The notes under the pieces: generated by a model
What the model was told of the DNA's origin: nothing
Databases searched by the model: none
The model's input: the letters and a program-made list of their open reading frames with translations, nothing else
DNA from: Mycobacterium sp. NBC_00419
GTDB taxonomy: Bacteria; Actinomycetota; Actinomycetes; Mycobacteriales; Mycobacteriaceae
NCBI RefSeq assembly: GCF_036023875.1
Contig: NZ_CP107931.1
Coordinates: forward strand, 3,658,001-3,722,000
Length of the DNA: 64,000 bases
Direction of reading: 5' to 3'
In this document: one piece after another, positions 48,826 through 64,000 of the stretch
How positions within the stretch are numbered: the stretch's first letter is position 1
Layout of the letters: each line of letters opens with the position of its first letter
Position numbers and translations under genes: made by a program

Positions 48826-50328
48826 TCAGTACGCCCCAGAGTGCGAGAACACCGCTTTCATCGTCTTCATGGCGATCAGCAGATCGGCGACCATCGACCA
48901 GTTCTCGACGTAGAACAGATCGAGCCGGACGGTGTCCTCCCACGACAGGTCGGAGCGACCGCTCACCTGCCACAGGCCAGTGATGCCAGGACGTACGAGC
49001 AGTCGACGCATCGCGTAAGCGTCGTACGACTTGACCTCTTTGGCCAGCGGGGGGCGCGGTCCGACGACGCTCATCTCGCGCTTGAGGACATTCATGAACT
49101 GGGGCAGTTCGTCAATGCTGTACTTGCGCAGATACCGCCCCACGGTGGTCACTCGCGGATCGTCGTGAAGCTTGAACAGTACCCCGCCCTGGAAATCGTT
49201 GTGGCGCGCCAATTTGTCGACCATGCGGTCAGCGCCATCGACCATCGTCCGGAACTTGAGCATGACGAACGGCTTGCCATCCAGACCGATGCGGCTCGAT
49301 CGGTACAGGATTGGTCCTGCACTCGTCAGCTTGATGGCGAGTGCGACAACGACGAGGAATGGCAAGCCGCACAGCAGGACTGCCGAGGAGAACGCGACGT
49401 CGAAGACGCGCTTCTGAAAGCGCTTGGCGCCGTCATACTGCGGCTTCTCGACGTGGATCAGCGGAAGCCCGGACACCGGACGCATCTGAAGCCGTGGTCC
49501 GGCGATGTCGGCGACACCGGGCGCGACGAGGAGGTCGACGTCGAGCTTCTCGAGTTCCCATGACAGATCACGGATTGCGCGGCTGTGGAGGCGCTCGGTC
49601 GCCGTGACCGCTACGGCTTGGCAGCCGGTTGCCAGGACGGCTTCCACCACATTGGATTCGTCACCGAACGTCGGGACCTTCCTGACGCCGGGTACGTCAA
49701 CGTAGGTATGGATGTTGGGTCCGGGAATGCACGCACCGACGACCTGGTATTCCGACCACTGCTCACGGGCAAGGGACTGAGTCAGATCACGAACAGCGGG
49801 AACGCTGCCGACAGCCAGTACGCGAGTGATGTAGCGGCCGTGCTTCATCCGGGCTCTGATCAGTGAGCGGCGGACCGACCAGCGCATCAGGGCGAGAATG
49901 ACCATCCCTGCCGGGAGGGCCACAAGCAGATAGCCCCTGGCGATCTCGAGTTTGAACAGCATCGACACGATCGCAACCCCACCGAACACGGACAGGGTCG
50001 CCGCCCAGACTCGCCGATACTCTTCTGCGCCGGCGCCGATGATACGTACCGAGCGGGATCGGGCAACGTACAGCGCCGCCAACCATGCGACGGCAATCAT
50101 CAGCGAGACCGCAGTGTAGCTGGGGCCCTGCGGAGTTCGCGGTACGACCGGCATTTTGCCGAACCGTACCCAGTGTGCGAGCCCAACCGCGGCAACAACT
50201 CCGAAAAAGTCGATGGCGACGAGGCGACGTGCGTATCCGTACTGCCACGAAGCAAATCTGTTGTTCAGCGAGGTATCGGTGTGGGCTGCAACTTGTAGCT
50301 CATTGCTTTCGCCTGCAGCTGTCAACAA
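48826..50328 (-). CDS. Phosphoglycosyl (exopolysaccharide sugar) transferase, WbaP type
   Basis: A 500-aa membrane enzyme that loads the first sugar-1-phosphate onto undecaprenyl (decaprenyl) phosphate. About four N-terminal membrane segments, a Rossmann-like central region ([14 protein letters not shown]), a fifth segment at about 312-335, and a catalytic domain with [40 protein letters not shown] and [18 protein letters not shown] start at 50328 with a G-rich stretch before it; the exact start is uncertain. It is probably the initiating enzyme for the repeating unit of the downstream polysaccharide locus. Confidence 0.9.
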
Positions 50329-51236
50329 ATCCCCCGATTCCCGAGAATCTCATCCAGCGCCATTGCTTAACGCGTGTGATCTTCTCATATCAAGTACCGT
50401 GCCGCTTGCGCGGGCAACGAAATTGACAGCGGATCTTCAGCTTGGCGTCTGTTCGAATGGCGGACCCGACAATTTATCTACGGCCACGTGCAACCTCAGC
50501 TAAATCGCAACGGGCCGTTGACGATAACTCATCGGGGCTGAATTACGTCCACGAAGGGCACGGTGCTCTATACCAAATGAAACCTGACCTAGTTTGCTTG
50601 ACAAAGCAAAATAAGTGCTTTATCGAGCATGAACATGGAAAAGAACTCCTGTGGTGTTAGCTCCGATACTGTGCGGCAACGAGAACAGGCCACCGGAACA
50701 CGGGAGCGTCCGCAGTGCCAGCGTGCCAACTCCGGCACAGCCTGTGCAGCAAGGCAATCCACCGGCCCGCCGAGTGGCCACTTCGTCCGACGCGGGGGCG
50801 AGATAGTCAACAGTCAGATTGGTCGCGACACGATCCGCGGGGGAGTCGGTCTGGGAGCCGGCCGGCGTGATCCATTGCGCCGGGCCATCTTCCAATACGG
50901 CGATATTGCTGGGGGTCCGCCTAGCGGGAGCTCGATCGGACCTTTCGTGATCCCCTCCTGGATTTCTAGGAGGAAGAGGCGGGAACGCATCCTCAGCCTG
51001 AAAGACAAGCCGGTGTCTCTGAAAGAAATCTGCACGGTGCCTGGCCTATACTTCGACGACAACGGCGTGTGGTTGCAGACTCGGGATTCGCATCGAACTG
51101 AAAGTCGTTGTAGCCAAGCATATTGCAGGTGGAACGGCGTCATCATCGACGATGGGCTGCGCCAGTCGGGTCGGGACCTCGGTGATTATCGGGGTATAGC
51201 TGGTATCTATCAGATCTAGCGGGATAGGGCGCATTG
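50329..51236. other. Gene-poor region of lower GC between sugar transferase and rmlB genes
   Basis: About 900 bases in which I support no gene. Base composition is visibly more AT-rich than around it, with AT tracts near 50390-50640. Frames at 50629-51219 (196 codons) lack a ribosome site and family motifs. One perfect hairpin, TTTGCTT-GACA-AAGCAAA, lies at 50593-50610. The stretch probably contains the divergent promoters of the locus; it may be remnant or horizontally acquired DNA. Confidence 0.5.
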
Positions 51237-52232
51237 ATGCGGTTGATTGTCACCGGTGGCGCGGGGTTCATCGGATCAAACTTCGTCCGACACGTGATCG
51301 ACCGCACCAGCTACCACGTGACGGTGCTAGACAAATTGACCTATGCGGGTAACCGTGCGTCCCTCAAAGATCTGCCGGACAAACGTGCCACGTTCGTCCG
51401 CGGGGACGTCGCCGACGCAGCCGTGGTTGATGAGCTTTTTGCCGGGGCCGATGCCGTCGTCCACTTTGCCGCGGAAACGCACAACGACAATTCGCTGCAC
51501 GGGCCGCATCCCTTCTTGGACACCAACCTGGTGGGCACCTTCACCCTGCTTGAAGCGGCCCGAAAGTACGGAACCAGATTCCATCATGTGTCGACGGATG
51601 AAGTGTATGGTGATCTGGCACTTGATGATCCGGCCAGGTTCACCGAGGCCAGTCCCTACAACCCCTCGTCGCCGTACTCCGCGACAAAGGCAGGAAGCGA
51701 CCTCCTGGTGAGGGCCTGGGTCCGTTCGTTCGGCGTCGCAGCCACGATCTCGAACTGCTCGAACAACTACGGGCCCTACCAACACGTCGAGAAGTTCATC
51801 CCGCGACAGATCACCAACGTGCTGTGCGGTCTGCGTCCCAAGCTCTACGGAGAAGGGCGCAACGTTCGCGACTGGATCCATGCGGACGACCACTCGTCAG
51901 CGGTGCTGAGGATCCTGGAAAAGGGCCGCATCGGAGAGACGTATCTCATCGGCGCCGACGGGGAGAGGGATAACAAGAGCGTCATCGAGATGATCCTCAC
52001 CTTGATGGGGCATCCCGCGAACGCGTACGACCATGTCGTCGACAGGCCCGGTCACGATCTGCGCTACGCGATTGACGCCACGAAGTTGCGCGCAGAGTTG
52101 GGCTGGCAGCCGAGGTATCGAGACTTCACGCGGGGACTGGCCGCCACAATCGAGTGGTACCGCGACCACGCAGACTGGTGGGGGCCGGCCAAAGATGCCA
52201 CCGAGGCGTTCTACGCCGACCTCGGCCAGTGA
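51237..52232 (+). CDS. rmlB: dTDP-glucose 4,6-dehydratase
   Basis: A 331-aa extended SDR that converts dTDP-glucose to dTDP-4-keto-6-deoxyglucose, the second step to dTDP-rhamnose and other deoxysugars. NAD motif GGAGFIGS (7-14), [17 protein letters not shown] (with catalytic Asp-Glu), [11 protein letters not shown] (Tyr-x3-Lys), [13 protein letters not shown] and [10 protein letters not shown] are present. rmlA, rmlC and rmlD are not in the window. ATG at 51237 (a TTG directly before it is unlikely). It probably supplies deoxysugar to the polysaccharide locus. Confidence 0.93.
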
Positions 52233-63828: not shown

Positions 63829-63835
63829 CGAATCC

Positions 63836-64000
63836 TCAGGGCTTTGACTCTGCTGCCTCTTTCTCGGGCGTGGCCGATACATCAGCGGGAGTCTCGGCCG
63901 ACCCGTTCTTGTCCGATGAACCATTCAGCGTCGCGCCATCGCTGCCATAGCTGTAGTTGTAGCTATAGCTGTACGCCGTGGTGCCACGTGCGGCTGTCAT
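63836..64000 (-). CDS. C-terminal tail of a probable bacterial tyrosine kinase (Wzc/CpsD type), partial
   Basis: The last 54 codons of a leftward gene that continues beyond the window edge. The tail holds a cluster of Tyr alternating with Ser/Asn/Gly (AYSYSYNYSYGSDG) followed by a Glu/Ala/Ser-rich end. Such Tyr clusters are the autophosphorylation sites of BY-kinases and Wzc proteins that control chain length and export in Wzy-dependent polysaccharide systems. Identity is inferred from this tail and the locus context; the kinase domain is not in the window. Confidence 0.6.
   Translation of the reverse strand: MTAARGTTAYSYSYNYSYGSDGATLNGSSDKNGSAETPADVSATPEKEAAESKP

Follow-up and report, generated by a model that had tools for sequence, protein, structure and literature searches.

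A 64,000-nucleotide stretch of the Mycobacterium sp. NBC_00419 chromosome (the window; bases 3658001-3722000 of the 5.6-Mb single-contig genome) carries at its right end what is probably the first of two tandem Wzx/Wzy-dependent exopolysaccharide clusters of capsule type, on an island beside ribosomal protein genes. The host appears to be an environmental species of the Mycolicibacterium type, since the nearest named relatives of its DUF4012 protein, encoded past the window's end, include those of M. pinniadriaticum, Mycobacterium sp. M26, M. lacusdiani and M. litorale. An earlier note on this DNA had proposed a Wzx/Wzy locus with a pyruvyltransferase in a mycobacterium, and this agrees with our family searches, which did not place the polymerase or the flippase in unrelated families: an initiating polyprenyl glycosylphosphotransferase (PGT), RmlB, four glycosyltransferases (two of them marginal), Wzy, Wzx and a pyruvyltransferase all matched Pfam or NCBIfam models at or near the places it had assigned to them (Table 1).

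If expressed, the cluster would follow the order of steps established for the Wzx/Wzy pathway elsewhere. The PGT would put a sugar phosphate on the polyprenyl carrier and the four glycosyltransferases would lengthen a short repeat unit, to which the pyruvyltransferase would attach an acidic ketal; phosphoenolpyruvate is the substrate of this pyruvyltransferase family. Wzx would then flip the repeat unit and Wzy polymerise it, while the Wzz/BY-kinase, a regulator of chain length in known systems, would set chain length here too; the tyrosine phosphatase whose gene adjoins the second-cluster PGT gene would be its likely counterpart. Outside the membrane, the DUF4012 protein would probably handle or anchor the finished chain, two proteins exported by the twin-arginine (Tat) route would probably trim or bind the polymer, and the polymer would presumably cross the mycomembrane.

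Gene content of the first cluster

The core genes of the first cluster are open and full length. The pyruvyltransferase aligns with the last 158 of the 280 positions of PF04230 only, and the acidic character that the earlier note predicted for the product hinges on this one match, which scores over the cut-off. Rhamnose does not follow from rmlB alone, because the RmlB product feeds other deoxysugars as well and the arabinogalactan linker already requires mycobacteria to make dTDP-rhamnose. The adjacent GT2 and GT4-like open reading frames (ORFs) overlap as called, and the start of one of them probably lies further in. In NCBIfam, Wzx matched the TuaB and MOP flippase models, each under its own cut-off, and no match at all was returned for Wzy, the pyruvyltransferase, the beta-helix candidate, the lipoprotein or DUF4012.

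Table 1 Features of the two clusters. Positions past 64000 continue the numbering of the window into the genome.
Feature	Position	Strand	Evidence
PGT (initiating)	48826..50328	-	PF02397 218.9 bits (cut-off 27); TIGR03025 EPS_sugtrans 407 bits (cut-off 296)
rmlB, dTDP-glucose 4,6-dehydratase	51234..52232	+	TIGR01181 457 bits (cut-off 365)
GT4 glycosyltransferase	52321..53421	-	PF13692 53.0 bits (cut-off 27); DUF1972 49 bits
Tat-exported protein, beta-helix candidate	53517..54863 (ORF to 55085)	-	PF13229 17.8 bits, below cut-off 25.9
Wzy-type polymerase	55127..56479	+	Wzy_C PF04932 45.8 bits (cut-off 31.7); ~10 hydrophobic segments
Wzx-type flippase	56494..58002	+	PF13440 204.2 bits (cut-off 23); ~10 hydrophobic segments
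Polysaccharide pyruvyltransferase	58030..58815	-	PF04230 50.0 bits (cut-off 25.3)
Probable Tat lipoprotein, no family assigned	59383..60294	-	twin-arginine signal and lipobox by eye
GT2 glycosyltransferase	60378..61385	-	PF00535 24.9 bits (cut-off 23.3), marginal
GT4-like glycosyltransferase	61310..62299	-	PF13692 27.1 bits (cut-off 27), marginal
GT4 glycosyltransferase	62659..63828	+	PF13692 60.1 bits (cut-off 27)
Wzz/BY-kinase	63836..65293 (3' end 63836..64000 in window)	-	PF02706 Wzz 40 bits and PF13614 46 bits, both over cut-off; TIGR01007 177 bits (cut-off 108)
DUF4012, first copy	65442-67283		PF13196 157.9 bits (cut-off 28); 149 bases from BY-kinase gene
Small secreted protein	67420-67863		no Pfam match
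Endonuclease/exonuclease/phosphatase-family protein	68343-69329		Pfam
PGT, start of second cluster	69626-71116		Pfam
Low-molecular-weight tyrosine phosphatase	within ORF 71404-72603		Pfam; beside second-cluster PGT
Flippase, second cluster	81279-82748		PF13440 26.9 bits (cut-off 23)
Wzy_C protein, second cluster	88273-89748		30.4 bits in Pfam scan (cut-off 31.7); 34.4 bits, over cut-off, in genome search
BY-kinase, second cluster	90669-92150		
DUF4012, second cluster	92198-93997		

The tail of a BY-kinase-like protein that the earlier note recognised at the window's edge is the 3' end of a complete gene for a 485-residue BY-kinase with a tyrosine-rich C-terminus. The kinase and the chain-length (Wzz) domain that were expected past position 64000 are both found there, joined in one protein.

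Two proteins of the cluster are predicted to be exported. The twin-arginine motif and lipobox seen by eye agree with the earlier description of one of them as a probable Tat lipoprotein, and no Pfam or NCBIfam family matched it over cut-off. The other had been called a Tat-exported beta-helix protein. Its Tat signal appears to be supported by comparison with a 414-residue M. llatzerense protein (62% identical) whose N-terminus lies at the twin-arginine motif, and for the same reason the start of the gene is probably near 54.86 kb and not at 55085. The beta helix is the weaker half of that description: the PF13229 score is below its cut-off, and once the doubtful N-terminal extension is removed there is no match at 0.01. 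A sequence search for solved structures returned no credible relative of either exported protein, DUF4012 or the pyruvyltransferase.

The known mycobacterial capsule consists of alpha-glucan and arabinomannan. None of the known glucan/lipoglycan capsule enzymes was recognised in the general Pfam scan of the cluster genes, in which no test was aimed at them. The 0.9-kb gap between the PGT gene and rmlB (50329-51233) has no Pfam-supported gene and no Rfam match, and could hold promoters. The ORFs at 58889-59380, 50629-51219 and 63199-63672 had no Pfam match at 0.01 and were not counted as genes.

A second cluster on the same island

The locus is larger than the earlier note had drawn it: DUF4012 and a second Wzx/Wzy cluster follow, the latter extending to about 94 kb and carrying its own machinery. 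Besides the genes of Table 1, the second cluster encodes glycosyltransferases, an FkbM methyltransferase, a DegT aminotransferase, an acyltransferase and an epimerase, together with GMD-, GER- and UDP-sugar-dehydrogenase-like genes named by eye. Between the two clusters the PGT (70% identity), the BY-kinase (67%) and DUF4012 (78%) are conserved, whereas the Wzx and Wzy proteins share no significant similarity. Conserved machinery with differing contents is, as far as sequence can tell, the pattern of serotype-like loci, and the two neighbouring clusters seem to build different sugar polymers.

Fresh duplication was considered as the origin of the tandem and rejected, because the host's own two copies never form one clade: of 200 bootstrap trees, 0% grouped them on the same side of a branch, both for DUF4012 (35 rows) and for the kinase (29 rows), the rows being, by design, all loci up to L086 plus a few others out of the 80 named loci described below. 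The tandem may instead have come from an older duplication or from transfer between close species. Contigs of other genomes likewise carry two DUF4012 copies each, 15-63 kb apart (L084/L132, L077/L086, L078/L089 and G399:C12), so paired clusters may recur.

The two clusters make up an island of about 46 kb with a G+C content of 60-61% between flanks of 67% (66.6% before the island, 61.4% in the first cluster, 60.4% in the second and 67.2% after it). Upstream lie nusG, rplK and rplA, named by eye from the ORFs. The right flank encodes an alpha/beta hydrolase, a sigma factor with DUF6596, a YCII protein and an ABC1 kinase, and resembles the rplA-lipG interval of other mycobacteria. Genes for tRNA-Thr, tRNA-Met and tRNA-Trp are located at 44072-46136, 2.7-4.8 kb ahead of the island; an Rfam scan of 44-64 kb found nothing beyond these three. 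Elsewhere in the genome, a third polysaccharide cluster (L016, C1:4742001-4762000) has a PF02397 transferase, a Wzy_C protein (37.0 bits), a Wzz/BY-kinase and an LGFP-repeat protein, and lacks DUF4012. Two further PF02397 transferases (L015, C1:3532001-3552000; L017, C1:4091001-4111000) bring the genome total to five.

Distribution of the machinery and of the cargo

Related clusters are common in the genus and the first cluster is not unique; the earlier expectation that such systems are rare in mycobacteria did not hold. Of 148 congeners, 115 have an initiating transferase of the PF02397 family, 63 a BY-kinase match at 1e-40 and 45 DUF4012; across the class, 174 of 394 genomes have DUF4012. 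All 45 congeners with DUF4012 have a PF02397 match, compared with 70 of the 103 without it (Fisher p 1.9e-6, with related species not being independent). A close form of the BY-kinase, defined by our own cut of E <= 1e-160 plus one contig-end fragment, occurs in 43 genomes, every one of which has DUF4012 (43/43), and lies within 4 kb of 37 of the 47 congener DUF4012 copies.

Twenty congener loci were fetched. PGT counts from this set were left unused because 14 of the loci had been picked for a listed PGT near DUF4012; the phosphatase and rplA counts are free of that selection. A phosphatase was present in 19 of the 20, and nusG/rplK/rplA lay inside the fetched stretch of eight. Large polytopic proteins are encoded between the machinery genes in 16 of the 20 loci, none of them similar at 1e-3 to the Wzx or the Wzy proteins of our genome. 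A Pfam scan of 20 of the 38 polytopic ORFs, drawn from 10 of the 20 loci, found both flippase and Wzy_C matches in seven of these 10.

A wider set of named loci, the best 80 of 127, is mostly from Mycobacterium/Mycolicibacterium, with three from Rhodococcus and one each from Prescottella and Gordonia; four more are titled as other phyla, are 5-26 kb metagenome contigs and may be mis-binned. Matches above 60 bits were found in 65 of the 80 for the BY-kinase, in three for the first-cluster Wzx and in two for the beta-helix candidate, and because the flanks reach at most 10 kb on each side, some cargo may be cut off. The small secreted protein without a Pfam match adjoins both DUF4012 genes (67420-67863; L018:2120-2611) and scores above 60 bits in eight of the 80.

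The pyruvyltransferase has no relative at 1e-10 in any other of the 148 congeners; at 1e-5 it was found in 14 of 345 genomes of the class including its own, the best being 59% identical and in another family. Among four such neighbourhoods in other families, PGT and DUF4012 occur in the same stretch in three, two of which also have a Wzx relative; the fourth has neither PGT nor DUF4012 within 20 kb. The lipoprotein had no relatives at 1e-5 in the 345 class genomes besides its own. In M. llatzerense, the relative of the beta-helix candidate is encoded just before DUF4012, and counterparts of the GT2 and of the 61310 GT4 lie further along; Mycolicibacterium sp. CBMA 234 has this set too, its beta-helix gene being truncated at the limit of the contig stretch. 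These occurrences suggest that the beta-helix candidate moves together with loci of this kind and that the polymer is probably what it acts on.

Several observations weigh against a capsule-type Wzx/Wzy system. For ten of the 47 DUF4012 copies the close kinase form was not found within 4 kb: six have one further off on the same contig, one (the second copy in G061) has it 16 kb away and three have none on the contig. Among the seven loci that matched both models, three of the Wzy_C hits and one of the flippase hits fall short of the cut-off, and of the remaining three scanned loci one has a flippase without Wzy and two have neither. The first-cluster Wzy, pyruvyltransferase and lipoprotein score above 60 bits in 0 of the 80 named loci, so these loci give no clue to a conserved function of the cargo. 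The first cluster also has no tyrosine phosphatase of its own. That absence, the lower G+C of the first cluster relative to its flank and the fact that its pyruvyltransferase and lipoprotein were not found in congeners would fit a recently acquired cluster, silent or in part defective. We give this hardly any credence, as the core genes are intact, their third-position G+C is raised as in coding sequence and the second cluster is equally low in G+C. Finally, PF04932, although named for O-antigen ligase, spans ligases and polymerases and does not separate them. The putative Wzy could then be a ligase or oligosaccharyltransferase, and the locus would make a short glycan for lipid or protein and no polymer. 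In line with this, the pyruvylated sugars that PMC6801904 lists for mycobacteria sit on glycolipids, which resemble the proposed product in bearing pyruvate ketals on surface sugars and differ in being short, lipid-borne glycans that are not made by Wzy. A Wzz/BY-kinase encoded beside the Wzy gene and conserved with DUF4012 argues against such a short glycan, which we regard as very unlikely.

DUF4012 and the place of the locus among known systems

DUF4012 is the least understood part of the locus. It has one predicted membrane segment near the N-terminus followed by a long remainder, and we wondered whether it is a LytR-CpsA-Psr (LCP) ligase, which it resembles by eye. This candidate was not supported statistically. 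With hhalign, 52 DUF4012 proteins aligned to the four LCP proteins (PF03816) of the same genome with a probability of 0.3, the controls against the BY-kinase giving 0.3 and 0.8. When 31 diverse DUF4012 proteins were compared with 34 LCP frames at full length, the membrane segment alone matched (probability 31.7); the domains by themselves scored 18.2, and the best of 30 column shuffles 20.0; better-cut domains reached 17.8, where the best of 40 shuffles gave 18.0, and in global mode 0.8, where shuffles gave up to 16.3. Probabilities between DUF4012 and PF03816 proteins were 0.3-0.6%, with scores inside the range of the column shuffles. The local alignment does pass through the motifs noticed by eye, and with looser settings it stays collinear over most of the domain.

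These comparisons also bear on whether the product is a secondary cell-wall glycopolymer resembling teichuronic acid, linked covalently to peptidoglycan or arabinogalactan by DUF4012 or by an LCP protein of the genome. The membrane topology of DUF4012 and the four LCP proteins elsewhere in the genome would suit such a product, as would the 175 bits of Wzx against the teichuronic-acid flippase model TuaB, though its cut-off is 580. However, none of the four LCP matches (0/4) lies inside the island and the profile comparison of DUF4012 with LCP proteins was not significant; we consider a wall-linked polymer unlikely and retain the capsule-type exopolysaccharide. A more speculative thought, doubtful but worth recording, is that DUF4012 is an unrecognised protein, very diverged but LCP-like or functionally equivalent, by which Wzy-made polymers are anchored at the actinobacterial envelope or released there, and that mycobacteria use it in a swappable, serotype-like capsule system at a chromosomal hot spot, which here would have been filled twice to give two capsules per cell.

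The E. coli colanic acid locus shares with the first cluster a WcaJ-type PGT, Wzx, Wzy, a Wzc kinase, a pyruvyltransferase and a predicted beta-helix protein, and differs in its Gram-negative export through Wza; an E. coli control genome gave no DUF4012 match. The mycobacterial envelope, with its mycomembrane, differs from that of Bifidobacterium longum. For B. longum 105-A, PMC5412050 describes a capsular polysaccharide/exopolysaccharide (CPS/EPS) locus in which PGT, DUF4012, Wzz, flippase, polymerase and pyruvyltransferase occur together, distinguishes its conserved and strain-specific parts and reports that a PGT knockout affects the capsule. The mycobacterial locus is alike in having the same machinery set in one locus and in combining it with strain-specific cargo; it differs in cargo and host, in the fusion of Wzz and kinase and in the presence of two tandem clusters. 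PMC6744442 restates the link between DUF4012 and the 105-A locus, and PMC7917626 presents a DUF4012 gene as the hub of a B. longum biofilm expression module. Actinoplanes missouriensis, also an actinomycete, has several clusters in its genome that are predicted to work by the Wzx/Wzy pathway, three wps clusters plus an earlier one (PMC13390465). Unlike the locus described here, these are tied to sporangium formation and have sulfotransferases in place of a pyruvyltransferase, and DUF4012, pyruvyl and tyrosine are absent from that text. The earlier note had called the system undescribed, which holds in so far as no mycobacterial or Rhodococcus Wzx/Wzy locus was among the matches listed from the open-licence literature; the design itself is the one described in B. 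longum, and its relatives are common in the genus.

Accounts of the mycobacterial surface usually centre on arabinogalactan, lipoglycans and mycolic acids. The first cluster adds a further case of an established pathway, from a group in which that pathway has received little attention. What gives it value is the pattern across the genus together with DUF4012, which is widespread in the class yet named in three papers of the open-licence literature searched, rather than any uniqueness of the cluster. If the DUF4012/kinase loci do make capsule-type polymers, many environmental mycobacteria would have a variable and sometimes acidic surface layer, with possible effects on biofilms, on access by phages and on how cells withstand drying. 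The route of a Wzy-made polymer across the mycomembrane, and the part that DUF4012 plays there, would then become a testable question.

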